NCBI RefSeq assembly: GCF_000513895.2
Contig: NZ_CP165784.1
Span: 248,001-312,000 of the forward strand
Reading direction: 5' to 3'
Origin: Ensifer sp. WSM1721
GTDB lineage: Bacteria > Pseudomonadota > Alphaproteobacteria > Rhizobiales > Rhizobiaceae
DNA length: 64,000 nucleotides
Notes under the pieces: model-generated
Told to the model about the DNA's origin: nothing
Seen by the model: the letters and a program-made list of their open reading frames with translations, nothing else
The model's database searches: none
Shown: one piece after another, positions 16,014 to 55,264 of the stretch
Position numbering within the stretch: position 1 is the first letter of the stretch
How the letters are laid out: each line of letters begins with the position of its first letter
Program-made: the position numbers and the translations under genes

Positions 16014-16028
16014 CGATATAACATATCG
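16014..16028. promoter_or_regulatory. Orphan operator-like palindrome (CGATAT-AAC-ATATCG)
   Basis: A perfect 6-3-6 palindrome with the same spacing as the IclR-type operators of the island (CAATAT-N3-ATATTG) and the same CGATAT half-site as the one at 20724-20738. No intact gene begins next to it. It is followed by another dyad, CATAAG-ATAG-CTTATG. It may be the relic of a lost promoter beside the decayed putA fragment. Confidence 0.4.
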
Positions 16029-16177
16029 CATAAGATAGCTTATGGAACTAGCATGCGGTTTCGCAAGTGTTGCTTTTTTGCTCCTAATGAATTTTTAGGC
16101 ACTCGCCCAAAGATCCTCGTGAATGGTCATCTGGCTATTGCGTTCTCGCCTTACATCGTCTGTCGCCTCAATATCGG

Positions 16178-16415
16178 CCATTGGTCTTCGCGGCGGAAAC
16201 GCATGACATGCAGCACCGGGCCAAAAACCTCGCGCTTGAGGTCGGAAAGCGTCGATCTCGATGATCGTAGGCGCGACGAAGGTGCCGCGTACGGCCACGC
16301 CGACCGTATTAACGCGGGTATCTTGCGACTTAGTGGCAAGTTCAACTTGTCTAAAACACTGCGCAATCTCATTTCTATCCCCATGCGCTTTGAACCTAAG
16401 TGCGCTTTCCGGCAT
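16178..16415 (-). pseudogene. PutA aldehyde-dehydrogenase domain remnant
   Basis: Minus-strand translation gives RGTFVAPTIIEIDA in one frame and then LSDLKREVFGPVLHVMRFRRED in another. These two blocks are adjacent in the L-glutamate-gamma-semialdehyde dehydrogenase half of bifunctional PutA. A small indel separates them, and both ends stop matching quickly, so only about 80 codons survive. Its position next to ocd and proC suggests the island once carried proline oxidation too. Confidence 0.7.
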
Positions 16416-16456
16416 CCCCTCGCGCTATCTACGCTCTTGGACGATCCCCGCGTCGA

Positions 16457-17425
16457 TTAGCGCGGCATTCTTGTACCAATGTTTGCCCGGATAGCTCTGT
16501 TGTAGAGTTCGCTCGCGACAGCAAGATCCGCCAACGCAAAGCCAGGATAAATGAAGAGTACACGGTCTGACGCGTTGTCGCGGCCCGCGAAATCTCCACT
16601 AGCGAGTTCCGCCAAGTCTGCGTTAAATGGTCCGGAATACGCGAGCTTCGATCGGGTATCAGGATCCTCGGCCTGCGCTCTATCGTCGACGACGAAAGAG
16701 CTAAAACCGCTGAAACTTTCGGGTAGCCACGATCGCCCCATATCAATGGCAATCGCCAGGCTGCCGGGGTTCAGCTTCCGCGCATCGAGAAATGGCTGCA
16801 TCCCTACGACGGTTGGCACGGTCGAAACAATCACGTCGCACTGAAGGACATCATCCGCATTGTCGGTCGATTGACCGGAGGCACCCTGAGCCGTGGCCCG
16901 CTCTGCGAGCGCGATTGCAGACTCAGCGCGGCGGTCGAAGCAAACGATCTTAGTCAGGCCAGGAAGCGCATCTCGTAGCGCCGCTAGATGCCCGTATGCC
17001 TGTGCTCCACATCCGATGAAACCCAGCGATGTGCTTCTTGGAGACGCGAGGTACTCTGACGCCAGCGCAGACATGGCTGCCGTTCTGATCACCGTCAGTC
17101 GGCTGGCATCCACGACGGCCAAGGGAAGACCCGTGTCAAAATCCCCGAGAACGATTAAGCCGTTGACGTTTGGCAGACCTCGCTGAGAGTTCGCTCCAAC
17201 GACGCTAACCCACTTCACTGCAGCAAATGGTGGCTCCGCGCAAGCTGCGGACATCGTCTGAAAATAGCGATCAGGTGCGGCTCTCACGGTCTGCTTGGGC
17301 GGAATCCTAAGATCGCTTGAGGCGTAGGCCTTAAATGCTCTCCGAAGCACCGATCGGAGATCGGCAGGTGACATGTCCAAGTCATCTATGTCAGACGCAT
17401 TCAGGTATAAAATGTCGTCAATCAT
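16457..17425 (-). CDS. Ornithine cyclodeaminase / mu-crystallin family protein
   Basis: A 322-residue NAD(P)-dependent enzyme. Hallmarks are KWVSVVGANSQRGLPNVNG near residue 70-90, the nucleotide loop GFIGCGAQA near 135, and VIRTAAMSALASEYLA. Family members deaminate ornithine to proline or reduce cyclic imines such as pyrroline-2-carboxylate; sequence alone does not decide which. ATG 17425 has a strong GGAGG. It is the last gene of the run caiD-like, caiC-like, proC, ocd, only 24 bases after proC, so a role in handling a cyclic imine or proline-type intermediate fits. Regulation is probably through the operator at 20724. Confidence 0.88.
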   Translation of the reverse strand: MIDDILYLNASDIDDLDMSPADLRSVLRRAFKAYASSDLRIPPKQTVRAAPDRYFQTMSAACAEPPFAAVKWVSVVGANSQRGLPNVNGLIVLGDFDTGLPLAVVDASRLTVIRTAAMSALASEYLASPRSTSLGFIGCGAQAYGHLAALRDALPGLTKIVCFDRRAESAIALAERATAQGASGQSTDNADDVLQCDVIVSTVPTVVGMQPFLDARKLNPGSLAIAIDMGRSWLPESFSGFSSFVVDDRAQAEDPDTRSKLAYSGPFNADLAELASGDFAGRDNASDRVLFIYPGFALADLAVASELYNRAIRANIGTRMPR

Positions 17426-17449
17426 TCAATCCTCCCCAATTTTCCGGCT

Positions 17450-18289
17450 TCATCGACCCTGCATTGGCACGCCGAGTTCCAAAGATCTGTCAAAGGCTGC
17501 CTTCGTGGTTCGCAGTATCAAAGAGGAAAGTGCGTTTTCAGCTGCGAGCACGGACAGGCCCGCTGCAGTAGTTCCGTTGGGGCTTGTCACCTGTCGTCGA
17601 AGTTCGGCGGGGTCCTCGGGGGAATCGAAAGCAAGCGCCGCAGCCCCATGAACGGTTTCCTTGGCCAATTTTCCTGCTATCTCCGCCGAAAGGCCGAGTT
17701 CGCGAGCGGCATCAGTCAGGCATTCGATGAGATAAAATATGTAAGCCGGCCCCGAGCCACTTATTGCCGTAGCCGCGTCGATCAGGCTTTCGTGTGCGAC
17801 CTGGTGAACCGCTCCACCGGCCTCGAAGAGACATTTAACGTTCTCAAGGTCAGTTTGTCCTACGGCGCTGCCGGAAAATACGATTGTTGAGCCTTTCCCA
17901 ATAGCAGTCGGCGTATTCGGCATCGCACGCACGATTCGAGCAGAATCGAGAAGCGATTTTAATGTCCCGACTGATACGCCCGCGGCAATGCTGACGAAGA
18001 CAGTACCGCGTGAAAAGCGTCTGTAGGAAGGAAGCTCACTCTGCAGGGCTTGCGGCTTCAACGCGATGACAATGAGGTCGGCTTTAGCGGGTAGAGTTTC
18101 ACAGCTCTCATGGGTGTTCACGCCTAACAATGCCGCTCGTTCGCGCAAAGCTGCGACCGGTTCGATGACGTGGACATTGCGAGAGTGAACAGTTGAGGAG
18201 TTCACCCAGCCTCGCAACAGTGCATATCCCATGTTGCCGCATCCAACGAGGACCAACGTATGAGATAATGTAGTTGATGCAGGGTTCAT
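17450..18289 (-). CDS. proC: Pyrroline-5-carboxylate reductase
   Basis: A 279-residue cytosolic reductase that converts 1-pyrroline-5-carboxylate to proline, or runs on related imines. The Rossmann loop LVGCGNMGYALLRGW begins near residue 14, VRAMPNTPTAIGKGS is in the middle, and the C-terminal signature DAATAISGSGPAYIFYLIE and TSPNGTTAAGL are intact. ATG 18289 has AGGAGACG upstream and is preferred over an upstream start that adds 23 residues without support. It is probably an accessory copy, since its neighbours are catabolic genes. In the same operon as the cyclodeaminase-family gene. Confidence 0.93.
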   Translation of the reverse strand: MNPASTTLSHTLVLVGCGNMGYALLRGWVNSSTVHSRNVHVIEPVAALRERAALLGVNTHESCETLPAKADLIVIALKPQALQSELPSYRRFSRGTVFVSIAAGVSVGTLKSLLDSARIVRAMPNTPTAIGKGSTIVFSGSAVGQTDLENVKCLFEAGGAVHQVAHESLIDAATAISGSGPAYIFYLIECLTDAARELGLSAEIAGKLAKETVHGAAALAFDSPEDPAELRRQVTSPNGTTAAGLSVLAAENALSSLILRTTKAAFDRSLELGVPMQGR

Positions 18290-18370
18290 TTCGTCTCCTA
18301 ATTCATCGGCGCGTTGTCCGTCGGACTTCGATTTCAGTTTGAAGGCAGAGATGCACACGCGAGTCTGAGA

Positions 18371-19918
18371 TTATGCTCGAGCTGTTTCCTGCGTCGCCAT
18401 ACGATCCCAGCAGTCGTGCAGCTCTTTTGAAAGCAAATGCTTCATGATCCTTTGACTGGGGGTCCGCTCGAAGTCGTTCACGACGGCGATGTAACGGGGG
18501 TTTTGAAAGGAGGCGAGACGCTCAGCCAGCCACCGAGAGAGATGCTCAGGATCAATGGCTTTGCCGCTCTTGGCTTTCACAAACAGCTTGATGTCCTGCT
18601 CGCCGACGTCGGCAGCGACGCCGATCATCGCGCAGTCCTCCACGGCCGGATGACCTGCAGCGACGTGCTCCACCTCCCACGCGGATACATTCTCTCCTTT
18701 ACATCGGACGCTGTCCGTCATCCGTCCGTGGAACCATAGGTTCCCGTGAGCGTCCAAAGTGCCTGCGTCACCTGTGCGAAGCGCACCGTTTACAAGTGCC
18801 TTTTCAGTGGCTTGCTGATTATCCAGATATCCTCTGAACAGCGCGCCATCGAGAGATGACCTCACAACGATCTCTCCTCGGTCGCCGTTAGCTACCGGAT
18901 TGCCCGCATTGTCTTCGATGGTTACGGTATACCAGGGCATCGGCTTGCCCACCGAACCGACCACACCTTCAGTGTTGCAGGTGGTGATGCTCGACGCTTC
19001 CGTCATCCCATAGCATTCCCGGATCTCTACGCCGAAGCGGTCGCGGAATTTGGGCCAGACGTCCGTGGGGCAGCCACCTCCCCATGCTATCCGGACGGAA
19101 TGTTGGCGGTCGAGCGGCGTCTCCGGCTGCTTCAGCAAGATCTGCAGAATGCCCCCAAGATAATGGATATGCGTTGCGCCCGAGCTCCTGACCTGGTCCC
19201 AGAAGCGGCTCGCGCTGAACCGGTCGACCATGGCTAATGTGACGTCTTCGATGATTGGCAAAACCAGGAGTTGGGCGCCGCCGATGTGGAAGAATGGCTC
19301 CCAAACGAAAAAGATATCTGCCGGCCCCATGGCGGTGAGTGTTCGCACCGCCTCACCTGCAAGCCGGAGCATTCCATGTGTAACGAGAACACCCTTTGGT
19401 CGCCCGGTCGTTCCGGAGGTATACATGACCGCGAAGAGGTCATGTGCTTCCGGAGCCGCATCAACGAAATCGGTTTCGTTCTGCAGGATTGCCTCGAACG
19501 ATCGATGATCCTGATCGCCGTCGATTGTGACAATCGCTTCGGAGGGTATTGCCGAGCCGCAATCAGCAATCGTCGAAAGAAACTCCCGGTCGGATACGAT
19601 GAGCTTGGGTTCGCTGTGTTCAAGGATGTAGCGAAGACCGTCGCCCTTCTGTTGCGCATTGATTGGCACCCAGACGGCCCCAGCCTTCGCAATCCCGAGA
19701 AGAACAGGCAGCGTCAGGCGCGAATTTCGCATCATCACCGCGACACGATCCCCCCGCTGGACGCCCTGATATCGTAGTTCAGAAGCAAGCGCGCCGGACT
19801 CGGCCTTTAGCGTGGCGAAGGTGATCGGCTCACCGTTGAAAAGAGCAAAGACCTGATCAGGGCTTTTGTCGGCTTTGGTGTTGAAGTCGGCTATGAAGCC
19901 CTTGAGATTGTCGATCAT
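18371..19918 (-). CDS. Acyl-CoA ligase (CaiC-like)
   Basis: A 515-residue AMP-forming ligase. The P-loop YTSGTTGRPKG is at residues 166-176, the adenylate motif YGMTEASS is present, and the hinge TGDAGTLDAHGNLWFHGR with the later Lys region (NPRYIAVVNDFERTPSQRIMK) is complete. Overall it looks most like crotonobetaine/carnitine-CoA ligases, which activate carboxylated quaternary amines with CoA. It starts six bases after the stop of the enoyl-CoA hydratase-like gene and is clearly co-transcribed with it. It would activate an acid that the hydratase then processes. Exact substrate is unknown. Confidence 0.88.
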   Translation of the reverse strand: MIDNLKGFIADFNTKADKSPDQVFALFNGEPITFATLKAESGALASELRYQGVQRGDRVAVMMRNSRLTLPVLLGIAKAGAVWVPINAQQKGDGLRYILEHSEPKLIVSDREFLSTIADCGSAIPSEAIVTIDGDQDHRSFEAILQNETDFVDAAPEAHDLFAVMYTSGTTGRPKGVLVTHGMLRLAGEAVRTLTAMGPADIFFVWEPFFHIGGAQLLVLPIIEDVTLAMVDRFSASRFWDQVRSSGATHIHYLGGILQILLKQPETPLDRQHSVRIAWGGGCPTDVWPKFRDRFGVEIRECYGMTEASSITTCNTEGVVGSVGKPMPWYTVTIEDNAGNPVANGDRGEIVVRSSLDGALFRGYLDNQQATEKALVNGALRTGDAGTLDAHGNLWFHGRMTDSVRCKGENVSAWEVEHVAAGHPAVEDCAMIGVAADVGEQDIKLFVKAKSGKAIDPEHLSRWLAERLASFQNPRYIAVVNDFERTPSQRIMKHLLSKELHDCWDRMATQETARA

Positions 19919-19924
19919 AGAACG

Positions 19925-20695
19925 TTACGCCTTCCTAGATGCCCGTTCGGCCAGGAATTTCTCCATCATCTGAGTGGTTTCGCCAGATGCGTAAGCCTCC
20001 CGGTGGATCCTGACCGCGGCATCCAGGCACTCGCGGAAACCGACCTCGGTCATTTCGCGCAGCCATTGCTTGTCGAGGCGCATGGCGACCGGCGGTTTGG
20101 CGCCCAGCTCACGCGCAAGCGAAAGCGAGGCCGTCAAGACCTCTTCCTGAGGAACAATCTTGTTGATGATTCCGATGGAATGGCACTCCGCGGCATCCAT
20201 GAACCGGCCGCTAAGCGTCAGATCAGTGGTCCGGGCCAATCCAAGGATCTCGCGCATGATCCATGGTCCGGTCACGCTGGCGATTCCGGAGTTGATCTCG
20301 GGCTGACCCATATGGACTCCCGCATGGCCGATCCGGAAGTCGCAGAGAAGTGCAACCTGAAAGGCAGAACCGGCGGCGACACCGTTCAAGGCTGCGATGA
20401 GCGGCTTAGAAAGCGAACGAATGGCACCGTAGAGGCTCTCCCACTCGGCAATCCATGCCGAGCTCGTGTCGCCATCGAGCGACTTCGCTTCGTTCAGGTC
20501 CTGGCCGGCACAAAATGCCCGGTCCCCTGCCCCAGTTAGCACGATTGCACGAACGGAATGATCGTTCTCGAGCTTGACAAGGGCGTCAACTAACTGGCTG
20601 CGCATAGGCTTGTGCCAAGCATTCAGGATCTCGGGCCTGTTTAATGTAACGACAGCGACGTCACCATTTCTGTCGATGAGAATGTAGCGATCCAT
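19925..20695 (-). CDS. Enoyl-CoA hydratase/isomerase (CaiD-like)
   Basis: A 256-residue crotonase-fold enzyme. The oxyanion loop AGQDLNEA near residue 65 and the second block ALNGVAAGSAFQVALLCDFRI near 105 are typical, and the acidic position lies in MGQPEINSGI. ATG 20695 is chosen because GGAG lies nine bases upstream; a start at 20710 would add five residues. It is the first gene of the four-gene operon with the CoA ligase, proC and ocd, and its leader holds the shared operator palindrome. Likely hydrates or isomerises the CoA ester made by the next gene. Confidence 0.9.
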   Translation of the reverse strand: MDRYILIDRNGDVAVVTLNRPEILNAWHKPMRSQLVDALVKLENDHSVRAIVLTGAGDRAFCAGQDLNEAKSLDGDTSSAWIAEWESLYGAIRSLSKPLIAALNGVAAGSAFQVALLCDFRIGHAGVHMGQPEINSGIASVTGPWIMREILGLARTTDLTLSGRFMDAAECHSIGIINKIVPQEEVLTASLSLARELGAKPPVAMRLDKQWLREMTEVGFRECLDAAVRIHREAYASGETTQMMEKFLAERASRKA

Positions 20696-20723
20696 GATCG
20701 GCTTCTCCATCCGTATTGTATTG

Positions 20724-20738
20724 CAATATTGGATATCG
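20724..20738 (-). promoter_or_regulatory. IclR-type operator A, promoter of caiD-like operon
   Basis: CAATAT-TGG-ATATCG, one mismatch from the perfect 6-3-6 palindrome. A -10 of TATTGC (minus strand) falls within it, and a weak -35 (TTTAAT) lies 17 bases upstream. A better -35 (TTGACT) lies further up with a possible -10 TAACTA, placing the palindrome near the transcription start. Confidence 0.7.
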
Positions 20739-20742
20739 CATA

Positions 20743-21205
20743 GTTATTAAATTGGTGAAGCAAGTCAAGCCCTTTTCGCGAGAAGCGCGCGAATCCAATC
20801 ACCTCGGAACGCGGCGACCCGGGGGCGAACCAGGCCGGCGCTTGGTTGCTGCCAGTAGCGCTACGTGCAGTCGGTACCTGATATTGCTGCAGCACCACCC
20901 CGCTCAGCTGGCCAATCACTCCTGACGGAACGAGAGCTGCGCGAATGTGGGCGACTGCGGATTACAACCGAGGGGCTCACGGGCGACAAGGAGCACCGTG
21001 GTGACAAGAGGTCATTCAGAAGGTCCCCGAGGTGTAGTCCGGAACCCCTTTAGTCGCGACACCCCGATCAGGGTGTCGTTGGCTCCGCGGATCAAACGCT
21101 GCGCATCGTACACACAACAGATGCATGGGATGCCCTCTGCTTTGACAAGATCAATCGATAGCGCGGCCGCACGGGGACTATGGAGAAATCCGCGAGTGAG
21201 AGATG
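20743..21205. other. Intergenic stretch without recognised gene
   Basis: About 460 bases between the caiD operon promoter and the end of the FAD demethylase gene. Short plus-strand frames have no family signal. No repeat or transposon end seen. Confidence 0.4.
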
Positions 21206-23644
21206 CTACATCTTCAGGCGATCGCCCGTAGGGTCGTAGAATGCCCTCAGGCTAGCATTCGCGGGTACCATCATGTCTGCGACTTGAATCTCGAACTTCG
21301 CACCCTCGATAAGGCTTTGATCTACACCATCCCCGTAATTTACATAGCCCATGCCGATCGCGCAGTTCAGCGAGAAGCTGTATCCAGCGGACGTTATGTG
21401 ACCGACATTTGCGCCATTCATGAAGATTGGCTCGTTATGATAGATCAGCGGTTCGGGATCTTGCAGTGCAAACTGTACCAAACGCTTGTTAAGTCTCTTA
21501 CCTTTCTCGGATGCCACGGCATCGCGACCGATGAAAGGAATTGCCTTGTCCATGGCACAAAGAAAACTTAAGCCTGCCTCTGCGGGGGTCTCATCTGGGC
21601 CGATGTCGTGTCCCCAGTGACGGTAGGCCTTTTCAAGTCGCAGGTAATTAAGCGCATTCATACCGGCGGGCCTGAGGCCGAATTCTTTACCCACCTCCAG
21701 CAAGAGCTCCAACGCGCCTGGCGCAAATTCATTGGGCAAGTAGATTTCCCAGCCCAATTCGCCCACGTAGGAAATGCGCACTGCGAGCGCGGTTGCCCAG
21801 CCAAAGTCTATTTCTTTGGCTGCTCCAAACGGAAACTGGTCGTTCGACAAATCGGCGTTGGTGAGCTTCGAGAGGACTTTTCGACTGTTGGGGCCCATTA
21901 GGCCGATAACAGCGTATCTATTGCTGACGTCCTCAAGTGCGACATCCGCGCCCCGAGCAACATGGTTCTTGAAGTAATGGGCATCGCGCACCGAAGTGGC
22001 GAGTGCGGTGACGACCAGGAAACGATCATCAGCCATTTTGGTGACAGTGAGGTCGGCCTCGATTCGTCCCTTCGGATTGAGCCATTGTGTGTAAGTTGCC
22101 CTGCCAGAGCGGCCAACATCGGCACAAGAGAGACGTTGCAGCTCACGCTCGGCATCTTTGCCAGTCACCATGAATTTCGCGAGAACGCTCTGGTCAAAGA
22201 AACCTACATTGTTTCGGACACTTTGGCACTCCTCCCTGCAGTACTCGAACCAGTTCTGGCGGCCATACGAGTACTCATCGACGGGCTTTACGCCCTTGGG
22301 CGCGTACCAGCTGGGTCGCTCGTATCCCGCCACTTCCCCGAAGCATGCCCCGAGCTCTTGCTCCTTATTATAGAAGGGCGATCGCTTGATGCCGCGCGAC
22401 GTCTCGAACTGACGGTTGGGCCAGTGCATCTGAAAGATCAGGCCAAGAGTTTCTTCAACTCTGGGGACCAAGAACGACTTTTTGTTCTGAAACGGGAAAA
22501 GCCGCCGAATATCCACATCCCACAAGTCGAAAGGAGGCTCGCCGTCGACGATCCACTGAGCCAGCGCCCAGCCCGCTCCACCGCCCCACTGTATTCCGCT
22601 TGAATTGAAGCCGGCCGCCACATAGAAATTTTTCAGGTGGGGTGCTTCTCCCATTACGGGTTTGTGGTCGGCAGTGAAGCTCTCAGGACCGTTAAAAAAC
22701 TTGCGGATCCCCACTGTTTGTAGACTCGGAACACGATGGAGCGCGCCTTCCAGGTAGGGCGCAAAATGATCGAAGTCTTCCGGCAGTTCGTCGAAGCAGA
22801 AATCTTCCGGGATACCATCTACCGCCCAAGGCTTCGCCCTGTGCTCAAACGCGCCGAACAGCAGCTTTCCGGTATCTTCCTTGAAATAGATTCCTCTCTC
22901 AGGATCCCGCATCATAGGTAGATCCGAGGTGACGCCTTCCATGGGCTCGGTAACGATGTAGAAATGCTCGCACGCTTGGAGCGGAATATCCACTCCGACC
23001 TGTTCACCAATCGAACGGGCCCACATACCGCCGCAATTGACCACGTATTCGCATGTGATGGTTCCCTGATCGGTTTCAACTCCCTTGACGTGGCCGTTCT
23101 CCGTTAGGATCCGGGTAACCTTCGTGTCTTCGAAAATCCGGGCTCCGCCGGCCCGAGCACCGCGCACAAGCGCCATGCTGACATCGGTGGGGTTGCATTT
23201 GCCATCATTCGGGTACCAAACCGCACCGATCACGTCGTCAACATTCAGAAGAGGCCACTTCTGCATGGCCTCGGCTGGGGTAATTACGTCGGCAACCACA
23301 TCCAATGTCCGCTGGAGCGCTACGCGGCGAAGCATTTCCTCCCAACGTTCACTGGTGGTCGCAACCGATACACTGCCTGGCTGGACAAAACCTGTCGCCT
23401 GTCCGGTCTCGGCCTCCAAACTGCTATAGAGTTTGACCGAATGCTTCGCCAGCCGGGTCAGATTCGCGTTCGCGAGTGAGTCAACCACAATGCCGGCAGC
23501 GTGCCAGGTCGTGCCACTCGTCAGCTTCTTACGCTCGAGCAGGACGACGTCTCTCCACCCAAATTTTGTGAGGTGATATGCAACAGAGCAGCCGACGATG
23601 CCGCCGCCAACAATTACGACCCGTGCCTGTGATGGAAGTGCCAT
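21206..23644 (-). CDS. Dimethylglycine/sarcosine dehydrogenase-type FAD-THF enzyme
   Basis: An 812-residue two-part flavoenzyme. The N-terminal FAD domain has VVIVGGGIVGCSVAYHL and SGTTWHAAG, where His48 is the expected site of covalent FAD in DMGDH. After the FAO_M-type linker (about 370-430) come the GcvT folate domain (about 435-700) and its C-terminal barrel. Such enzymes oxidise N-methyl amino acids and pass the carbon to tetrahydrofolate as 5,10-methylene-THF, with electrons going to ETF. The neighbouring operon encodes ETF, ETF-QO, FolD and PurU, which is exactly the downstream machinery. Expressed alone from a promoter with the shared operator, with a leader of about 170 bases. The methylated substrate cannot be told from sequence. 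Confidence 0.92.
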   Translation of the reverse strand: MALPSQARVVIVGGGIVGCSVAYHLTKFGWRDVVLLERKKLTSGTTWHAAGIVVDSLANANLTRLAKHSVKLYSSLEAETGQATGFVQPGSVSVATTSERWEEMLRRVALQRTLDVVADVITPAEAMQKWPLLNVDDVIGAVWYPNDGKCNPTDVSMALVRGARAGGARIFEDTKVTRILTENGHVKGVETDQGTITCEYVVNCGGMWARSIGEQVGVDIPLQACEHFYIVTEPMEGVTSDLPMMRDPERGIYFKEDTGKLLFGAFEHRAKPWAVDGIPEDFCFDELPEDFDHFAPYLEGALHRVPSLQTVGIRKFFNGPESFTADHKPVMGEAPHLKNFYVAAGFNSSGIQWGGGAGWALAQWIVDGEPPFDLWDVDIRRLFPFQNKKSFLVPRVEETLGLIFQMHWPNRQFETSRGIKRSPFYNKEQELGACFGEVAGYERPSWYAPKGVKPVDEYSYGRQNWFEYCREECQSVRNNVGFFDQSVLAKFMVTGKDAERELQRLSCADVGRSGRATYTQWLNPKGRIEADLTVTKMADDRFLVVTALATSVRDAHYFKNHVARGADVALEDVSNRYAVIGLMGPNSRKVLSKLTNADLSNDQFPFGAAKEIDFGWATALAVRISYVGELGWEIYLPNEFAPGALELLLEVGKEFGLRPAGMNALNYLRLEKAYRHWGHDIGPDETPAEAGLSFLCAMDKAIPFIGRDAVASEKGKRLNKRLVQFALQDPEPLIYHNEPIFMNGANVGHITSAGYSFSLNCAIGMGYVNYGDGVDQSLIEGAKFEIQVADMMVPANASLRAFYDPTGDRLKM

Positions 23645-24135
23645 GTCTTACCTCAGAATCTTTCTTATTCACACGCAGGTCCGCGCATACGCCGACCACT
23701 GGTTCCGCCTATAGGAGCTACCAAGCGCGCCCCTCCCCATGCACCGCGCAGCCCTGAAGGCGCCAGGCCAGAGCTGCGATTCCCTCGCAAAGCACTATAC
23801 CTTCGCGACGTATTGGATACAAATATTACGTATTGATATTTGCGCGAAGTGTCAAGCCCTAGTTCGGTATGTGCAACAGACTGAGCCGAAACAAAAGCTC
23901 GCCTCTAAGCACAATTTTCGTCTCGTTTGATGAACGAAAACCGTAGCTTACGGCATAGTTCAGTTTCACCCGTCCCACGCGACGGAAGCCAAAACTCACG
24001 AGTTTGGTCGTCGCAGAGCCGTTAACTCGTGGGAGACGTTTGGACGAACGCCAAGGAAATTGGTTTCCTTTTGCGCAGACAAAATTGTGCAGGTCGGCTG
24101 CTTGTCTGCCCGAGGTTGGTCTGAGGCTTCGAAGT
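23645..24135. promoter_or_regulatory. Leader and promoter region of the FAD demethylase gene
   Basis: About 490 bases. It holds operator B and the promoter of the demethylase gene; the left part down to the stop of the ETF-QO gene shows no gene and no clear terminator. Confidence 0.5.
23821..23835 (-). promoter_or_regulatory. IclR-type operator B, promoter of FAD demethylase
   Basis: Read on the minus strand it is CAATAC-GTA-ATATTT. The -35 TTGACA (23855-23850) stands exactly 17 bases from a -10 TACGTA (23832-23827) that lies inside the palindrome, as in the other operators of the island. Confidence 0.72.
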
Positions 24136-46705: not shown

Positions 46706-46933
46706 TTCTCCCGATCCTTTCGACCTTTAGTTGCGCCGCTCGCAGCCAGAAGACCGGCCAAGGCATTCGAACCCATGATTTTGGGCCAAGTCAAAAATGA
46801 CGCGCCCAACGCCGACTTCGTTACAATCAGCTCCGACCGATCACCGTTACACAAACTGAATGGGTAATCTTCGGAAGCGACCGTGCTTCATAAAGCGACA
46901 ACTGCTGCAGCGGCTAACTGGCGTGCAATTCAC

Positions 46934-47659
46934 TTAAGTCGCAGGCGCGACTTTGCACAGGCGTGCGAGGTCGGCAGGAAGCCGCTCGCCCGCTCCGACC
47001 GTGTGGAGCAACCGCCAAAGCGTCGCGAGGTTACTGGTTACAACCGGTCGACCAACACGCTCTTCCAGGGAGGCGATACCGCGCAACCAGGTAAAATTGG
47101 TGCACGAGATAAAAACGCCATCGACATCTGAAGGAACCTGCGGCGCCACCCACTCGTTGATCGGCTCCCAGCAGTCCTCGACGTCTGTAGCATACATGTC
47201 GAAACCCCAACTGAGGTGAGACACTACGAAGCCATGGCCCTCCAAGAAGGTGACAAGCCGCCGGGAGACCCATTCCTCATACGGAGTGAATACTGCCAGC
47301 CGCTTCAATTCCAACGCACGCAGTGCGGCTATCACACTTCCGGCGGTGGTCACAGCCGGAAGGCCGGACGCCTCCTCAATGACATTTGCGACGCTTTCAT
47401 CATAGCCAACGCCTTCGAGGAGGCTGCCTGCTGTGCAGGCCAGGGCAATCGCTCTTGTGCGGCGCGCGTGGCTGAGCAGTTTCGCTGCTTCTCCGGACTT
47501 TACTTTCATGTCAGCGAACTGTTCGTAGTCGTCCCCCTCATTCTCAACTCGGTGAAAATGAAATCTAACTCCTTTAATGCCGAGGCGAGGTAGATCGCCT
47601 TCCAGAACATTATTCTCGGACGGGGTAATGAGTCCGAGTCCGATCGGTTGCAGGGACAT
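46934..47659 (-). CDS. Maleate isomerase / Asp-Glu racemase-superfamily protein
   Basis: A 241-residue protein of the cis-trans maleate isomerase, arylmalonate decarboxylase and Asp/Glu racemase superfamily. Two catalytic Cys are in place: Cys75 in IALACTAGSLL and Cys186 in VFISCTNF. The C-terminal RPVVTSNLATLWRLL is typical of the maleate isomerase-like branch. It may racemise, isomerise or decarboxylate a small acid. ATG 47659 lies about 50 bases from a perfect operator. First gene of a probable operon with the D-amino-acid dehydrogenase. Confidence 0.88.
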   Translation of the reverse strand: MSLQPIGLGLITPSENNVLEGDLPRLGIKGVRFHFHRVENEGDDYEQFADMKVKSGEAAKLLSHARRTRAIALACTAGSLLEGVGYDESVANVIEEASGLPAVTTAGSVIAALRALELKRLAVFTPYEEWVSRRLVTFLEGHGFVVSHLSWGFDMYATDVEDCWEPINEWVAPQVPSDVDGVFISCTNFTWLRGIASLEERVGRPVVTSNLATLWRLLHTVGAGERLPADLARLCKVAPAT

Positions 47660-47710
47660 GGACAGCTCCTATCTTTGATGGTGACAACGTGGCGAGCTGG
47701 AATTACAATG

Positions 47711-47725
47711 CAATATTTAATATTG
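47711..47725 (-). promoter_or_regulatory. IclR-type operator G, promoter of racemase-type gene
   Basis: CAATAT-TTA-ATATTG, perfect. Minus-strand -35 TTGACG (47745-47740), 17 bases, then -10 TATTAA (47722-47717) inside the palindrome. Flanks GAAATA and GCAT are shared with operator C. Confidence 0.82.
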
Positions 47726-47745
47726 TATTTCATGAGGTCCGTCAA

Positions 47746-48230: not shown

Positions 48231-49655
48231 CTAGCCGGCGTATCCTGCGAAAACGGGGGGTCGACGCGTCGACCAAGGGACCGCTCGCTCCAAGTCACGT
48301 GCAATACGAACGAGGGTCGCCTCGTCGCCGAAGCGCCCTACGATCTGTATTCCGATGGGCAGTTCGTTCACACTCTGGAATAATGGTAAAGAAACCGAGG
48401 GCTGGCCAGTAATATTGAAGATTGCCAGATGCTGTTCAATCTCCAATTCGGCATCCATGAGTTCGTCGCCGGTGAGCTTTCTGTATCTGTCGTGGGGAAG
48501 CGCCTTAGCCAGCATCGTGGGCGTCAGAAGAATGTCGAAGTCCTTTGTGGCCTCACCTACCTCCGAACGGATCTTACGAGCGCCTTCGAAAATTTCCTGC
48601 GCATATGCAAGCGGGAGTTGCTTTCCCACGTGGTAGAGCTCGAGATTGTGAGGCTCCAGGGTCTCTTCGTTGATGTCACGGCCGAGCGCACGCGCTGTCC
48701 TATCAAGCGAGGAAAATCTCATGTGAGCCATTCCCGCCAAGACCTTGCCGTATTCAGCGAAATCAACAAGTGGGGGGATCTCCTCTATGAGGTGCCCCAT
48801 AGACTCCAGTAGCTTCGCAGTTTTCTCGACAGCACCACGGATATCCGGATCGCCCATTGCCGTTCCTGGCGGTGAAGTGGGCATACCGACCCTGAGCCGG
48901 TTGCTTGGTTGTTCAAGTTCCTCCACATAGGGCCGCTCCGGCGACGCTATGACGAACGGATCGCCAGGCTGGGGCCCATGCAAAACATCGAGGGCAGCCG
49001 CCATGTCACGAACGCTCCGGCAGACCACAAAATCGCGGACATTTCCGTAGCCGGCATCCTGCTTGTTCGGGCCGCCGGAAATGCGGCCGCGCGATGGGTT
49101 CAAGCCGACAAGGCCGCAAAGTGATGCGGGGATACGAATGGAACCGGCGCCGTCGCTAGCATGCGCGATCGGCACAACGCCGGCGGCGACGACGGCCGCG
49201 GACCCCGAAGACGAGCCGCCCGCTGTCAGGTCAAGGTTCCATGGGTTGCGCGTGATCCCGCAAGCCAGGGATTCGCTTGACCCCCTCGTGCCGAACTCAG
49301 GCATGGTGGTGCGACCTAGAATGCGCAGCCCACCAGATCGTGCGCGCTCCATAAAATAACTCTCTACCGCCGGGCGGTGGCCCTGGAGAAGTCTACTTCC
49401 TTGCTCTTGCAGCCGCCCGGCTTCGCTCGGACCGGTGTCCTTGCGCAGGAAGGGCACCCCGCAAAAAGGTCCCGTGTCTGAACCCGTTACGGTCTCGGCA
49501 TCGTCGTAGAACTCGATGACGCCATTAATGGCAGGGTTAATTTGGTCGTGCGCCTCCCGTGCCAGTCGCACAAGCTCCACGGCGGTGATGTCGCGCTTGC
49601 GGACTAATCCCGCAAGCCCTGTGGCGTCGTATCGGGCATATTCATGTAGTTTCAT
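48231..49655 (-). CDS. Amidase (amidase-signature family)
   Basis: A 474-residue amidase. The Ser-cisSer-Lys triad is visible: Lys72 in FLRKDTG, the Ser-rich loop TAGGSSSGSAA near 148-152 and the nucleophile Ser172 in DGAGSIRIPA. Residues after 420 (GQPSVSLPLF, LPIGIQIVGRFGDE) are family-typical. ATG 49655 follows AGGAGGAG. It is the last gene of the peptide-type ABC transporter operon, starting 12 bases after the second ATPase, so it probably cleaves an amide in the compound that this transporter brings in. The family covers many amides and carbamoyl compounds. Confidence 0.93.
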   Translation of the reverse strand: MKLHEYARYDATGLAGLVRKRDITAVELVRLAREAHDQINPAINGVIEFYDDAETVTGSDTGPFCGVPFLRKDTGPSEAGRLQEQGSRLLQGHRPAVESYFMERARSGGLRILGRTTMPEFGTRGSSESLACGITRNPWNLDLTAGGSSSGSAAVVAAGVVPIAHASDGAGSIRIPASLCGLVGLNPSRGRISGGPNKQDAGYGNVRDFVVCRSVRDMAAALDVLHGPQPGDPFVIASPERPYVEELEQPSNRLRVGMPTSPPGTAMGDPDIRGAVEKTAKLLESMGHLIEEIPPLVDFAEYGKVLAGMAHMRFSSLDRTARALGRDINEETLEPHNLELYHVGKQLPLAYAQEIFEGARKIRSEVGEATKDFDILLTPTMLAKALPHDRYRKLTGDELMDAELEIEQHLAIFNITGQPSVSLPLFQSVNELPIGIQIVGRFGDEATLVRIARDLERAVPWSTRRPPVFAGYAG

Positions 49656-49667
49656 GCGAACTCCTCC

Positions 49668-50645
49668 TTATGTTTTTTTATGTGACAATGGATGGAGACA
49701 GGCATAAGCGCGTCCTCCAGCTTCTGGCTCGCACAGTTTGGGCTCGACGGCATCGCACTCGGACGTCGCCCAACGGCAGCGCGGCGCGAAACCACATCCG
49801 GAAGGCCGGTTGAGTGGACTCGGGACCTCGCCGTCGACCGGTACCGGCAATCGGCGCCGCCCAGGGTCGATCACCGGTACGGCATCCAGCAGAGCTCGCG
49901 TGTAGGGGTGCCGCGGATCGGCGAACACGTCAGCCACTGGTCCGCTCTCGACGATGCGACCGAGGTACATGACCGCGACGCGATGGGCTATATAGTCCAC
50001 GACACCAAGGTCGTGGGTGATGAATAGATAGCCGACGTTCGAGTTGGCCTGCAGAGTCTTCAGGAGTGTCAAAATCTGCGCTTGCACGGATACATCAAGC
50101 GCAGCAGTTGGCTCGTCAAGCACAAGTAGCCGCGGCTCAAGCGCCAACGCACGCGCTATCGCGACGCGCTGCATCTGCCCGCCGGAAAGCTGGTGCGGAT
50201 AACGGTTGAGGTACTCTGCGCTAAGTCCAACCTGGCTCAGCAGTTCCCCCGTGCGCCGAGTAGCAGCATCGCCGCGCATGCCAAGAATAGCGTCCAGCGG
50301 CTCGGCGATAATGGAGCGTACCTTCATTCTCGGATCGAGTGAGGAATGCGGGTTCTGGAACACCACGCCGATGTCGCGGCGTGGGGGCATCGTCGCCCCA
50401 TGGACGGGCGCAGTGACAGCGTTGCCGCCGATCTCAATCGTGCCCGCATCGAATCTTGCAAGACCTAGGAGCGTGGACGCTAGCGTGCTCTTACCGCACC
50501 CGGACTCACCCACAATCGCCAGTGTCTCGCCCGGCGCGATTTGGAAGTTGATACCGTCCAGGGCCTTTATCATCCCATGGCGCGTGGGGTAGACCTTGCT
50601 GAGACCCTCAACGAAAACAAGGCGAGATGATGGTAAGGGGTTCAT
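49668..50645 (-). CDS. Peptide-type ABC transporter ATPase 2 (DppF/OppF type)
   Basis: A 325-residue ATPase. Walker A GESGCGKSTLA, signature LSGGQMQRVAIARALAL, Walker B LLVLDEPTAALDVSV and the switch FITHDLGVV are intact. The C-terminal oligopeptide-transporter extension has the Cys pattern GCGFAPRC...C...C that binds an iron-sulphur cluster in relatives. ATG overlaps the stop of ATPase 1 as ATGA (50642-50645). One of two ATPases for the nickel/peptide/opine class transporter in this operon. Confidence 0.94.
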   Translation of the reverse strand: MNPLPSSRLVFVEGLSKVYPTRHGMIKALDGINFQIAPGETLAIVGESGCGKSTLASTLLGLARFDAGTIEIGGNAVTAPVHGATMPPRRDIGVVFQNPHSSLDPRMKVRSIIAEPLDAILGMRGDAATRRTGELLSQVGLSAEYLNRYPHQLSGGQMQRVAIARALALEPRLLVLDEPTAALDVSVQAQILTLLKTLQANSNVGYLFITHDLGVVDYIAHRVAVMYLGRIVESGPVADVFADPRHPYTRALLDAVPVIDPGRRRLPVPVDGEVPSPLNRPSGCGFAPRCRWATSECDAVEPKLCEPEAGGRAYACLHPLSHKKT

Positions 50646-51631
50646 GATGCCTCCGTAAACTGCTGATTCTCAGCGGCATGATGGCACAATGCCATGTGGC
50701 CCCCGCCGAACCTGCGGTAAGGCGGAAGTTTTGTGGCGCAGATATCCGTCGCTTGGTCACATCGGTCGTGGAACGCGCAGCCTGCGGGCATGGCAGCAGG
50801 ATCCGGCACATGGCCGGGTATCGACACAAGATCGGATCCTGCACATCCTATGGCTGGAACTGTGCCGAGCAGCTTCGTCGTGTATGGATGACGCGGATCA
50901 TCGATCACAGCTTCGACTGTTCCGGTCTCTACGATCCGGCCCGCGTACATTACTGCCACACGATCGCAGAGTTGCGAAACGATCCCGAGATCGTGCGTAA
51001 TAAACAGCACAGCAAGGCCCTTATCGTCCGCCAGCCGCCGCAGCAGCGCGACAATCTGGGCCTGCACGGTCACGTCAAGCGCGGTTGTTGGCTCGTCGGC
51101 TATGAGGAGCCGAGGTTGGCAGGCGAGAGCGAGCGCGATGACGGCTCGTTGAATCTGGCCGCCGGAAAGCTGGTGCGGGTACTTCTCAAGCGCCAACTCT
51201 GGGTCAGGGATGCGCACGGCCTTGAGCTCGGTCAAAACCGCAAAACGTGCTTCGTTCCTGCTCATTGACCGGTGGCAACACACGACGTCGATCATTTGTC
51301 GTCCGAGGGTGAAGAACGGGTTCATGGAACGCATCGGATTCTGAAAGACCATCGCAATCCGGCCGCCGCGCATTGCACGTAATTGTCCCTCCGGTCGCCC
51401 GATAACCTCCTGGCCGTCTACAATGATACTGCCGGTAGCGCGTCCAGGCGTCGACACCATGCCAAGACAGGCGCTCGCCGTCATGGACTTGCCGCAACCC
51501 GATTCCCCCACCAGTCCAAGCACTTCGCCGCCTCCCACCTTGAGATTGATGCCACGCAGGATCGAGCGGGAGCGCAAGAGGCCGGGGAACGTTACGTTAA
51601 GATCGCTTATCTGAAGAACCGCACCGTTCAT
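50642..51631 (-). CDS. Peptide-type ABC transporter ATPase 1 (DppD/OppD type)
   Basis: A 329-residue ATPase with Walker A GESGCGKSMTAS, signature LSGGQIQRAVIALAL, Walker B LLIADEPTTALDVTV and FITHDLGIV. The C-terminal Cys cluster (GCAFHDRC...C) is present. ATG 51631 follows GGAG and overlaps the permease stop as ATGA (51628-51631); a longer open frame from 51739 is not used. Translational coupling on both sides shows a tight operon. Confidence 0.94.
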   Translation of the reverse strand: MNGAVLQISDLNVTFPGLLRSRSILRGINLKVGGGEVLGLVGESGCGKSMTASACLGMVSTPGRATGSIIVDGQEVIGRPEGQLRAMRGGRIAMVFQNPMRSMNPFFTLGRQMIDVVCCHRSMSRNEARFAVLTELKAVRIPDPELALEKYPHQLSGGQIQRAVIALALACQPRLLIADEPTTALDVTVQAQIVALLRRLADDKGLAVLFITHDLGIVSQLCDRVAVMYAGRIVETGTVEAVIDDPRHPYTTKLLGTVPAIGCAGSDLVSIPGHVPDPAAMPAGCAFHDRCDQATDICATKLPPYRRFGGGHMALCHHAAENQQFTEAS

Positions 51632-52509
51632 TCTCGTCGCTCCTTCTTTGGATCCAGGATGTCGCGCAATCCGTCGCCAATGAGATTGACGGCGAGTACA
51701 GTCACAAAAATGGCCAAGCCTGGAAACAGCGCCGTCCACCAGTAGTTCAAGAAATCGGTTCGAGAGTCAGCCGCCATGAGGCCCCACTCGACAGCCGGAG
51801 CCCGTACGCCCAAACCAACAAAGCTTAACGATGCCCCGGCCAGAATTGCATGGCCGAAATCCGCCGATGCTCCAACGATGACCGGCGTCAGCGAATTCGG
51901 CAGAACGTGACGGATCATAATGCGTATATGCCCTACGCCGATCGTGCGCGCAGCATCGTTGTAGAGTTCACCGCGCACCCGCAGGACAGCTGCCCGCATG
52001 ACGCGCGCAGTCCCGGGAAACCAGGAGACGCCGAGCGCAATTATGGCGCTCCAAAGACTCGGACCCAGCGTAGCGGTAATTGCGATTGGCAGCAGCATCG
52101 GCGGAAAGGCCATGAAAACGTCCGAGACGCGCATCAAGAGTAGGTCAGTCTTGCCGCCGAAATATCCGGCAACAAGTCCGAGCGGAGCACCTATAGCCAA
52201 AGAGAGAAGAACAACGCTTAGGCCAACGAGCAGCGATAGCCTTCCACCATAAAGGACTCTGGCGAAGATATCCCTGCCAAAACGATCCGTCCCCATCAGG
52301 TGTTCTGCGCTGGGCGGGGCAAGTCGCTCCGACATGACGATCTCGCTCGGCGAATGAGGCGTAACCCAGGAGGCCAATCCAACACTACAAATCACGATCA
52401 CCAGAATCGCGGCACCAAGTACGAACAGCTGGTGTTTTGCGATGTAGGCTCGGGCCCGGATCATCCGGCCGGGCCGTACAATGACATCAGTTGCCATCAT
52501 CATCTCCAT
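51628..52509 (-). CDS. Peptide-type ABC transporter permease 2 (DppC/OppC type)
   Basis: A 293-residue inner-membrane protein with an N-terminal helix and five further segments. LMGTDRFGRDIFARVLYGGR and the EAA-type loop NDAARTIGVGHIRIMIRHVLPNS are typical. Its ATG overlaps the stop of permease 1 by one base (TAATG); an ATG four codons later (52497) with GGAG upstream is also possible. Confidence 0.93.
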   Translation of the reverse strand: MEMMMATDVIVRPGRMIRARAYIAKHQLFVLGAAILVIVICSVGLASWVTPHSPSEIVMSERLAPPSAEHLMGTDRFGRDIFARVLYGGRLSLLVGLSVVLLSLAIGAPLGLVAGYFGGKTDLLLMRVSDVFMAFPPMLLPIAITATLGPSLWSAIIALGVSWFPGTARVMRAAVLRVRGELYNDAARTIGVGHIRIMIRHVLPNSLTPVIVGASADFGHAILAGASLSFVGLGVRAPAVEWGLMAADSRTDFLNYWWTALFPGLAIFVTVLAVNLIGDGLRDILDPKKERRE

Positions 52510-53528
52510 TACGCTGTTCTCAGCCGCGGATCTACGACAGCATACAAAAGGTCGACAATTAGATTGACCAAGAGATACATGCCAGCAAGTAGAAGTGTGG
52601 CCCCGAGGGAGGCGGGATAGTCGTTCTGCACGATCGATGAAACCACAAAGGCACCCAGACCTGGCCAGTCAAAGACAGACTCGACCACAACCGCCCCCCC
52701 CAGAAGCAGCCCGTACGTCATGCCGACGACCGTCAGGATCGGTATGAGGGTTGCTTTCAGTGCATATCGATAATAGATGACGGAATTCGGTAGCCCATAG
52801 GCAAATGCCGTTCGGATATATTCCTCCTTTAAGACTTCAACCATCATGTTGCGTGTGATCCGCGTCACAGTGGCCAGAAGTAGGATGGTAAGGGTGAGCA
52901 AAGGCAGCGCGATGTGCCTGAGAGCGCTCGAAAAGCCTGCCCAATTCCCGGTGATCAGAGAATCGACGAGGTACAGGCCGGTGATGGGCTGGATCGGGTC
53001 GTCCAGAAGAATCAACGGATCCACCCGCCCTTGGAGGGGCAGCCATCCGAGTGTTCCGTAGAAGAGGAGTTGGAGCGACATCGCCAGAATGAAGGAGGGC
53101 ATTGCCACTCCAGCAACCGAAACCGTCCGCACGATGTTATCGATCATTGAGTTCTGGCGTACCGCAGACAGAACTCCGATCGGTATACCGATCAGCATGA
53201 CGAGCATTGTTGCCAGAGTGGTTAGTTCGAAGGTTGCACCGAACCGCTCACGAACCTCCAGTAGCACAGGCCGTCTGGTAAGCAGGCTGTCGCCGAAGTC
53301 AGCGCGCAGTATATCCCCGATGAAGTGCACATACTGAAAGACGAGTGGCTTATCGAGGCCGAGCTCGGCGTTTACCTTTGCGACCATCTCCGGCGTAGGC
53401 CGGCCGCCAAGCATCAATTCTGCTGGAGAGACAGCGAGCACACGGCTCAGCAGGAACATAATGGAGATAACACCCACTACGATCCCTATGAGCATGAATA
53501 GTCGCTGAGCCAATGACTTCAGGCGCAT
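52509..53528 (-). CDS. Peptide-type ABC transporter permease 1 (DppB/OppB type)
   Basis: A 339-residue inner-membrane protein with six membrane segments. The ELGLDKPLVFQYVHFIGDIL and GDSLLTRRPVLLEVRERF stretches and the loop EEYIRTAFAYGLPNSVIYYRYALK fit the family. The second ATG of a tandem pair (53528) is chosen because GGGAGG stands five bases before it; the first at 53531 is too close. Located 35 bases after the binding-protein gene. Confidence 0.93.
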   Translation of the reverse strand: MRLKSLAQRLFMLIGIVVGVISIMFLLSRVLAVSPAELMLGGRPTPEMVAKVNAELGLDKPLVFQYVHFIGDILRADFGDSLLTRRPVLLEVRERFGATFELTTLATMLVMLIGIPIGVLSAVRQNSMIDNIVRTVSVAGVAMPSFILAMSLQLLFYGTLGWLPLQGRVDPLILLDDPIQPITGLYLVDSLITGNWAGFSSALRHIALPLLTLTILLLATVTRITRNMMVEVLKEEYIRTAFAYGLPNSVIYYRYALKATLIPILTVVGMTYGLLLGGAVVVESVFDWPGLGAFVVSSIVQNDYPASLGATLLLAGMYLLVNLIVDLLYAVVDPRLRTA

Positions 53529-53563
53529 CATTTCCTCCCGATTTTTGCGAAGACAATCAGCGA

Positions 53564-55126
53564 CTATCTGCGAAGGCTGTAGATGGAGAGCCATTCGTAG
53601 GCGGGGTTGTTGGCGTCCTCCATCCCCTTGATATCGGAGGAATAGGCGTTGACCCGGTTTACGTCGGCATAGAAAATCGCGACGGCGTTCTTCATTAGAC
53701 GGTCCTGAGCCGCGATATATGCGTTTGCAGCAGCGTCTTTGTCGACAGCTTCCAGTTTAAGAGCTTGGTCGACCAATCGATCGAAATCCTCATCATAGTA
53801 ATAGGAAAGATTCCAGGTGGGCTTCTTCTCGGTACGGAATGCCAGCGCCAAAAAGTCCGATGGAGTCGGATAGGCAGGCCACCAAGTCATCGAGTTCAGG
53901 TGACCGGCGGTTTCCGGAGACCTAGCTTTGCTCATGTAGGTGCTGCCCTCGTTGTGAAGCTCAAGTTCGACCTCCAGTCCGACCGCCGAGGCGTTGGCCC
54001 GGAAGAGTTCTATCGCATCGACGGCCTCCTGACTAAAGGCTGAGAACATCGCCTTGATTTTCCAGTCTTTCCTGGGAATACCTGACTCCTCCAGGAGCAT
54101 CAGCGCCTTTTCCGGGTCGAACGTGCCTAGGTCGTATGTACCATGCCCCCAGAGCGTCGAAGGTAAGGGTCCCACCGGCTTTCCTGCAGCACCATGGAAG
54201 ATATCCTTTATCACGGAGTCGTGATCCCAAAGATGCAGCAGTGCCTGCCGGAATTTCAGGTTGTCTGTTGGATATTTCTGAGTGTTGATCATAAAGAGCT
54301 GATTGAGCCAGCTTGGAGTGTTTGTAACTGAAACATCGAGCTGAGCGGCGCTGCCCTCCATCTGCGAAGCAGGAATACGAGAAATATCCGCATCGCCGGA
54401 GCGGATCATTTGGACGCGGGTCGACACCTCAGCCACGTAGGGGTGAAGAACCCGGTCCACCTGACCGCTTTCCCAGCCACCCCAATAATCATCGAACTTC
54501 TGGAGTACGGCCATCTTCCCCTGCTGAAACTGGGCAAGCTTGTAGGGGCCGGTGCCAATGGCGTTTCCTTGGGTCAACCACTCGTCGCCATGATCAATGG
54601 CTGCCAGCCCCATCACGAATGCGCCAGATTGACCGGCGGCCACGAGGTCGAAGGCGACGGGATCCTTGAAGTGGAAAATGACGGCGTGTTCGTCCGGCGT
54701 CTCGACACTTTCCAGACCAGCTAGTGCATAGCCCGCGGTTTTCCCGAGGTCACGCGTATATTCAAACGATCGCTTGACGGCGGCTGAATTCAGCGGCGAA
54801 CCGTCGTGAAACTTCACGCCTTTTCGCAAACTTACAGTCCAGGTCTTGCCGCCGTCCGTGCCCTCCCAAGAGGTTGCGAGTTTCGGCAGCACCTTACCGT
54901 CCTTATAAAAGAGGAGGGTCTCGTAGACATTGCCAAGCACCTGAATTTCGACACCACCGGTCGATGCAGGATTCATGTCCCGGTACGAAGACGTGCTGAC
55001 CCAAGTCAGTGTGACCTGCGACCGCGCCGACTGCGCAGTCGCCGGCAGACTGAGCCAGCTCATTCCGGCAATCGCGATGGAAGAACCTACGGCACCCTTG
55101 AGCATTTCTCGACGATTCATTGGCAT
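53564..55126 (-). CDS. Peptide-type ABC transporter binding protein with Tat signal
   Basis: A 520-residue family 5 solute-binding protein. The N-terminus MNRREMLKG with a following hydrophobic stretch and ATAQ is a twin-arginine export signal, so the protein is probably folded before export. The body (WVSTSSYRDMNP, WTVSLRKGVKFHDGSPL, GTGPYKLAQFQQGK) is canonical for dipeptide, opine or nickel binding proteins. ATG 55126 has AAAGGGG upstream; a GTG at 55237 would extend it over the promoter. First gene of SBP-permease-permease-ATPase-ATPase-amidase, with operator H upstream. Confidence 0.93.
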   Translation of the reverse strand: MPMNRREMLKGAVGSSIAIAGMSWLSLPATAQSARSQVTLTWVSTSSYRDMNPASTGGVEIQVLGNVYETLLFYKDGKVLPKLATSWEGTDGGKTWTVSLRKGVKFHDGSPLNSAAVKRSFEYTRDLGKTAGYALAGLESVETPDEHAVIFHFKDPVAFDLVAAGQSGAFVMGLAAIDHGDEWLTQGNAIGTGPYKLAQFQQGKMAVLQKFDDYWGGWESGQVDRVLHPYVAEVSTRVQMIRSGDADISRIPASQMEGSAAQLDVSVTNTPSWLNQLFMINTQKYPTDNLKFRQALLHLWDHDSVIKDIFHGAAGKPVGPLPSTLWGHGTYDLGTFDPEKALMLLEESGIPRKDWKIKAMFSAFSQEAVDAIELFRANASAVGLEVELELHNEGSTYMSKARSPETAGHLNSMTWWPAYPTPSDFLALAFRTEKKPTWNLSYYYDEDFDRLVDQALKLEAVDKDAAANAYIAAQDRLMKNAVAIFYADVNRVNAYSSDIKGMEDANNPAYEWLSIYSLRR

Positions 55127-55249
55127 TTCAAGTTCCCCTTTCTTGCTTGACGGCTCTTCGAAAGACCACAGCTGCTCATGGAACAGCTGCTTTCGAATGT
55201 TCGCGGGTGGCGTCGCCGTGAGCGCTACCCAATTCACAAAATTGCAATC

Positions 55250-55264
55250 TAATATTCAGTATTG
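55250..55264 (-). promoter_or_regulatory. IclR-type operator H, promoter of peptide-type transporter operon
   Basis: Minus strand CAATAC-TGA-ATATTA, two mismatches. The -35 TTGACG (55284-55279) is 17 bases from the -10 TACTGA (55261-55256), which is inside the site. Confidence 0.75.

Follow-up and report, generated by a model that had tools for sequence, protein, structure and literature searches.

A repeated three-box site as the probable operator of an IclR-family regulator in a catabolic island of Ensifer sp. WSM1721

The island and its repeated palindrome

The stretch of DNA analysed here (the window, 64,000 nucleotides of Ensifer sp. WSM1721) corresponds to positions 248001-312000 of contig C3 in a 6.33-Mb genome of four contigs. 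It carries a catabolic island of 29 genes in eight units, namely opA (four genes), opB (one), opC (five), opD (two), opF (eight), opG (two), opH (six) and iclR, which agrees with the regulon of about 30 genes estimated in the first-pass annotation. Contig C3 has 584,844 bases and is taken as the symbiotic replicon because nifH is located on it (391357-392172; PF00142, 439.7 bits). A palindromic site is repeated in front of the predicted operons, and it very probably serves as operator for the IclR-family protein encoded in the island, a putative repressor of these operons.

The palindrome CAATAT-N3-ATATTG lies where the first-pass annotation had located it, with perfect copies at 29397, 30785, 35122 and 47711. 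One mismatch is found at 20724 and at 29390, the latter overlapping 29397, and two mismatches at 23821, 55250, 16014, 16169, and 48410. The window has 23 matches at three or fewer mismatches; the mean in shuffled sequences is 8.6, the largest number 20, and none of 100 shuffles reaches 23. The listed site in the iclR promoter (30656) was present but has four mismatches and was not recovered at three or fewer (core score 0.87, rank 72 in the window). Sinorhizobium sp. 8-89 has a site similar to this weak one. Site D, a perfect palindrome lying in the same gap between iclR and opD, is a candidate operator of iclR.

The operator was first described as a palindrome, and this part was confirmed; the boxes number three, however, not two. 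The full structure, which is new relative to the earlier description, is CAATAT-N3-ATATTG-N5-CAATA, with CAATA at +20, counted from the first base of the site. CAAT is present at +20 in 19 of 29 sites found in other genomes (outside sites) and in four of nine window sites (A, B, D, and H), F and G have TAAT at this position, and C, 30656, and 16014 have neither. The -35 set the orientation of the outside sites, and the next gene that of sites lacking TTGAC; for 16014 the choice was arbitrary. Loci L022 and L023, which nearly duplicate L016, were kept out of the motif set. The shuffle and core-plus-box-3 tests used 25 of the 29 outside sites (L027 6432, L016 13348, L024 3375, and L016 26646 were dropped). 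CAAT at +20 occurs in 19 of these 25, and the maximum at any offset in 2000 flank shuffles is four. For site B, the core score alone is equalled by seven of 173,934 background positions, and addition of box 3 lifts it clear of the background maximum (Table 1); the combined score sets both B and H apart from 173,694 background positions.

Table 1. Units of the island and operator sites, in window positions; scores in bits are from the model of outside sites (R1) unless another score is named.
Feature	Position	Strand	Content or remarks
opA	16457..20710	-	enoyl-CoA hydratase-like, AMP-dependent acyl-CoA ligase-like, ProC-like, ornithine-cyclodeaminase-like
opB	21206..23644	-	FAD + GcvT-type protein
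opC	24136..29362	-	EtfB, EtfA, PurU, FolD, FixC-like oxidoreductase; predicted start codon near 29362
iclR	29787..30629	-	IclR-family regulator; best NCBIfam TIGR02431 (PcaR/PcaU/PobR)
opD	31067..34787	+	hydantoinase/oxoprolinase (caprolactamase-like) B and A subunits; scores under equivalog cut-offs
opF	35207..45314	+	PotD-like substrate-binding protein (SBP), AstE/AspA-like deacylase, second SBP, fused PotBC, PotA, MurE-like ligase, DadA-like, short-chain dehydrogenase/reductase; predicted first ATG 35207, predicted single operon
opG	45443..47659	-	arylmalonate decarboxylase/EutA-like protein + DadA-like dehydrogenase
opH	48231..55237	-	Dpp/Opp-type transporter + amidase; true start codon probably downstream of 55237
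operator-like CGATATAACATATCG	16014..16028		past end of opA, no gene assigned; missed by R1
operator A (20724)	20714..20743	-	three boxes, just downstream of -10; 25.2 bits
operator B (23821)	23811..23835	-	three boxes, core with two mismatches; core + box 3 23.5, background maximum 2.0; missed by R1
operator C (29397)	29390..29411	-	perfect palindrome, with a second one overlapping it at a distance of 7 bases; without box 3; 19.9 bits
iclR-promoter site	30656..30670	-	weak, operator-like, four mismatches; -35 TTTACA
operator D (30785)	30785..30809	+	perfect palindrome + box 3; 22.6 bits
operator F (35122)	35117..35146	+	perfect palindrome, box 3 TAATA; 25.0 bits
operator G (47711)	47702..47730	-	perfect palindrome, box 3 TAAT; 22.9 bits
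operator H (55250)	55230..55264	-	palindrome 55250 + box 3; 11.2 bits; core + box 3 22.7

Specificity and conservation of the site

The perfect palindrome occurs four times in the 6.33-Mb genome, all four in the island, and six of the eight places with one mismatch or fewer are also in the island. The 60 kb examined to the left and right of the window (1 kb overlapping it) have no match at two or fewer mismatches. The sequence-only model R1, built from 28 of the 29 outside sites (one row shifted by the aligner), gives ten matches in the own genome at E<=10, all ten in the island. They represent six promoters (A, C, D, F, G, and H), four of which (A, C, F, and G) are also read on the opposite strand; the match at H alone has an E of 2.4. 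This genome-wide matrix scan, proposed with the first-pass annotation, matched no unrelated promoters among the 150 of 366 first-look candidates that were scored.

Among 33 genomes of the genus, the perfect palindrome is found in three: four copies in the own genome and one each in Sinorhizobium sp. 8-89 and genome G003. Besides the own genome, only Sinorhizobium sp. 8-89 has iclR at E<=1e-60. In 394 genomes drawn from the family, with at most six candidates scored per genome for iclR and 18 for R1, iclR at E<=1e-90 is present only in the own genome, and R1 at E<=0.01 matches four genomes: the own one six times and three others once each, about the number expected by chance.

The site accompanies close orthologs of the regulator. 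Among the 40 matches listed in a tblastn search of plasmid records with IclR, six have 80-86% identity, one 73.5%, and one 55%. Sites with no more than one mismatch are present in six of the eight plasmid loci, where most of them precede homologs of the island's operons. On genome contigs, five of eight loci carry the site, all with an ortholog of 82-84%, and it is missing at the 73% locus and at two unrelated ones (23%). Taken together, the site at one mismatch or fewer is present in 11 of 11 examined loci whose IclR is 80-86% identical, and the loci without it have IclRs of 73%, 73%, 55%, and twice 23%. The Ponticoccus locus (55%) has a weaker match (E 0.016) between the ECH and OCD genes, with CAATA at +20. 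The conservation expected in related islands was thus borne out before homologous operons. In these comparisons loci L033 and L036 were taken as the same genome as L027 (genomes G028, which is Sinorhizobium sp. 8-89, and G422 share coordinates).

The IclR protein as candidate regulator

The iclR product has the two domains of its family, each over the cut-off: PF09339 at 47.5 bits (N-terminal helix-turn-helix) and PF01614 at 139.8 bits (C-terminal effector domain). Its score to TIGR02431 is 213.4 bits, under the cut-off of 284.75, which does not place it in the PcaR/PcaU/PobR subfamily. Orthologs of at least 80% identity share its recognition-helix stretch exactly or with a single residue changed.

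Three-box sites have been predicted for 32 orthologous groups of the IclR family, with PcaU, PobR, and HmgR named as known cases (PMC8222616). The sites of the island resemble these in combining a palindrome with a third half-site outside it, so that three boxes alternate in direction, but the box is CAATAT and not of the GTNCG or TGRAACA type. The CAATAT box is not in Table 1 of PMC8222616, whose supplementary tables (4809 sites) may list it, and the Suvorova-Gelfand group 1 and 2 consensus sequences (GKTYCRYW3-4RYGRAMC and TGRAACAN1-2TGTTYCA) differ from it by inspection. Tandem sites at a distance of 18-22 bases have been reported in the family (PMC8222616); upstream of opH a weaker palindrome (55230, three mismatches) lies 20 bases from 55250. 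IclR-family proteins generally control their own gene and one or two adjacent operons (PMC8222616), whereas eight units are involved here; regulogs of up to 55 COGs are reported in the same source. Among the papers listed in a literature search, none was visibly about this regulon.

The first-pass annotation had placed the operator over the -10 box of nearly every operon. This stands for most sites, but not for opA, where the -10 candidate AACTAT precedes the site by one base and the operator is at the start region, a layout kept in the eight relatives' opA promoters listed (gap 24-26). Candidate -10 boxes at a 17-base spacer are TACGTA (B), TATTGC (C), TATTCA (iclR), TATATA (D), TATTAA (G), and TACTGA (H); F has TATACG with a spacer of 16. 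None of the eight -35 hexamers deviates from TTGACA at more than one base. The gap between the -35 and the palindrome varies from 7 to 26, leaving aside overlapping secondary matches (one with a gap of 5), and no phasing is evident by eye. As the gap is variable and the site always lies across the -10 or the start, a steric, blocking repressor is favoured over an activator. Operators at the promoter are likewise found for E. coli IclR, which overlaps the aceBAK promoter (reference title in PMC13273656), and for PheR, an IclR-family repressor of Sphingobium that protects +23 to -21 of its promoter (PMC13273656); the sequence in the island differs from theirs.

We infer that this IclR is the binder and that it represses. 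In the absence of inducer it would probably sit on the boxes across the -10 or start region and block RNA polymerase. A compound imported by the island transporters, or a product of this compound, would probably release it, and some 28 uptake and breakdown genes would then be turned on together.

An activator role of IclR, with the sites as activation sites, is unlikely. PcaU and PobR, which have related three-box sites, are activators. The family as a whole includes both activators and repressors (PMC8222616), but the position of the sites across the -10 or start, their unphased distances to the -35 and the near-consensus -35 hexamers of all eight promoters argue against activation. Hardly more probable is control by the paralog IclR2 (C3:318178-319014), alone or jointly with IclR. 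IclR2 is 71% identical, has nearly the same helix stretch, and is encoded about 15 kb beyond the island; against its involvement, the six plasmid records at 80% or more have the site, four of these six show a single IclR place at E<=1e-5 within the record searched, and the IclR2-type loci (L020/L040, L029, and L037) have no R1 match. It is very improbable that the palindromes are nothing more than AT-rich -10 regions whose resemblance is due to chance or common descent. Most sites do overlap a -10, and homologous promoters share descent, but the site stands at differing distances from the -35 and precedes opB and opC, which lack homologs in the loci of relatives. Chance or plain -10 resemblance was rejected on the shuffle tests, the exclusiveness in the genome, and the model of outside sites.

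Several observations weigh against assigning the sites to a repressing IclR. The iclR-promoter site is weak, box 3 is missing at C, and R1 misses B, 30656, and 16014 in the own genome. The two-mismatch sites 16169 and 48410 have no visible promoter, the latter being inside the amidase gene. The loose pattern lacks specificity by itself: at two or fewer mismatches it has 59 places in the genome, and the reversed control pattern has 14. The SBP/Pot operon of S. meliloti KH35c has no site at two or fewer mismatches in front of it, and many outside sites are homologous, hence not independent. The paralog IclR2 could bind the sites too, and the ability of IclR-family proteins to activate (PMC8222616) counts on the same side. 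In G003 a perfect palindrome (C3:165684), intergenic by open reading frame listing and without a close iclR, is unexplained.

If the assignment to IclR is right, it provides a testable operator and a defined regulon for a protein found with such islands in Rhizobium, Sinorhizobium, Mesorhizobium, and Bradyrhizobium.

Island content, the kamA cluster and a rhizopine-type reading

The island was compared with 14 sets of relatives in the examined loci (matches of at least 50% identity over at least 40% of the query). Homologs of at least one opA gene are found in 12 of the 14, and opB and opC have none. The opB product is probably an N-demethylase. Since opB and opC (demethylase-like and one-carbon genes) lack homologs in these loci, the version of the island in the window seems to have been enlarged, further operons having come under the same operator. 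Homologs of opH in S. americanum CCGM7 have 65-78% identity. An ectoine-like substrate was considered possible on the basis of EutA-, EutC-, and EutE-like matches far under their cut-offs (82/318, 66/472, and 75/403 bits).

About 15 kb past the island, the second iclR (71%) is surrounded by two ATP-grasp ligase genes, a methyltransferase gene, and a gene for a KamA-like aminomutase (L037:4082-12121). This kamA (C3:321961-323121) is about 19 kb from the last operator; the 585-kb contig that carries it also carries nifH and the island. The KamA subfamily scores (lysine 469, arginine 435, and glutamate 433 bits) are all under the equivalog cut-offs and do not single out a substrate.

The occurrence of kamA follows that of iclR. 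Among the matches listed, near full-length kamA of at least 77% identity is found in six plasmid records, all six belonging to the seven records with an iclR of at least 73%, and the next full-length match has 53%. A further plasmid record has kamA at 60-80% identity, outside the best 60 matches listed and so with less of the query covered. The seventh iclR record, of Mesorhizobium AR10, has no such kamA among the matches listed, its other replicons not having been searched. The plasmid records include UPM791 pRlvC, the symbiotic plasmid of that strain (PMC5852556). At E<=1e-100, kamA is present in five of six distinct iclR-carrier genomes (own, G419, G420, G421, and G423) and in none of ten hand-chosen comparator genomes, eight of which have nifH over the cut-off. 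The sixth carrier, Sinorhizobium sp. 8-89, has iclR, parts of opA and opF, and sites, with no kamA at this threshold; it may be a strain that consumes but does not synthesise.

Upstream of the kamA cluster, a TGT-N10-ACA upstream activating sequence (UAS) combined with a -24/-12 element was found in 10 of 11 strains with the -12 relaxed. The UAS is perfect in five strains: S. meliloti KH35c (104 bases before the -24), the own genome (100), and three Rhizobium strains (102-103), in which the pair precedes a GDH-ATP-grasp-kamA operon. It has one mismatch in S. americanum (105), Bradyrhizobium LCT2 (97), B. manausense (103), B. iriomotense (110 and 80), and M. caraganae (100). KH35c has a second UAS/-24/-12 pair about 1 kb further upstream. 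In R. ruizarguesonis UPM1133 (L062) no pair is present in the stretch examined, where another gene may come before kamA. KH35c is alone in having the canonical TTGC at -12, the other strains having TTGA, and a strict scan requiring GG and GC gave no pair before kamA in the loci that it covered. The -12 was relaxed to TTGN after this strict scan, one scan using a still looser pattern, and the relaxation later found support in M. loti, R. etli, and R. leguminosarum, whose nifH promoters are reported to have A at -12 (PMC3538637). The count over 1.20 Mb of strand-bases, a total that includes overlapping and homologous loci, came to 17 distinct pairs, several before other genes; block shuffles gave 3, 0, 0, 2, and 0. 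The window itself has no pair with the relaxed pattern.

NifA controls the synthesis genes of rhizopines, and strains that produce them typically have the catabolic genes too, reported to be in close linkage on the Sym plasmid (PMC10107442). The island may, in a tentative reading held at somewhat below even chance, be the catabolic half of an unrecognised rhizopine-type system of amino-acid chemistry. In bacteroids, NifA and sigma54 would activate a pathway of lysine-2,3-aminomutase-like and ATP-grasp enzymes, whose product would leave the nodule. The three-box operators would keep the IclR regulon of kin silent until the compound arrives, and these kin would then feed on it. The likeness to the mos/moc system of 3-O-methyl-scyllo-inosamine would lie in putative NifA-type promoters of synthesis genes and in catabolic genes possibly linked to them, judged at the level of sequence. 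The differences are the aminomutase and ATP-grasp genes in place of inositol genes and IclR-type control in place of MocR. No inositol-type enzyme was noted among the annotated genes, in which mos/moc genes were not specifically searched for, and no paper was found in the literature search on rhizolotine, considered as a lead. If the island is indeed linked to the aminomutase cluster with its NifA-type promoter, this would point to a second chemical kind of nodule-made kin nutrient beside the inositol rhizopines.

Similar promoters were seen near other genes. In the own genome, right of the window, a NifA/sigma54-like promoter also precedes one ATP-grasp ligase gene. The Bradyrhizobium sp. LCT2 plasmid (L040:15745-26083) has a canonical TGGCAC/TTGC promoter with a perfect TGT-N10-ACA 99 bases upstream, followed by long open frames, the last with non-ribosomal peptide synthetase domains and a thioesterase. 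The S. americanum CCGM7 plasmid has an ectoine synthase gene near kamA (L058:4391-5098; 158 bits, over the cut-off), preceded by a NifA/sigma54-like promoter with one mismatch in the UAS.

Within the window, the MurE-like ligase of opF (41684-43144) scores 620 bits against a cut-off of 476 and retains the DNPR motif; the presence of a cell-wall ligase in a catabolic operon is unexplained. Three MFS_3 family genes stand beside the island, two on the left (10386-12020 and 13472-15124) and one on the right (62501-63994), and an ISNCY-family transposase gene (57278-58873) lies directly right of it.

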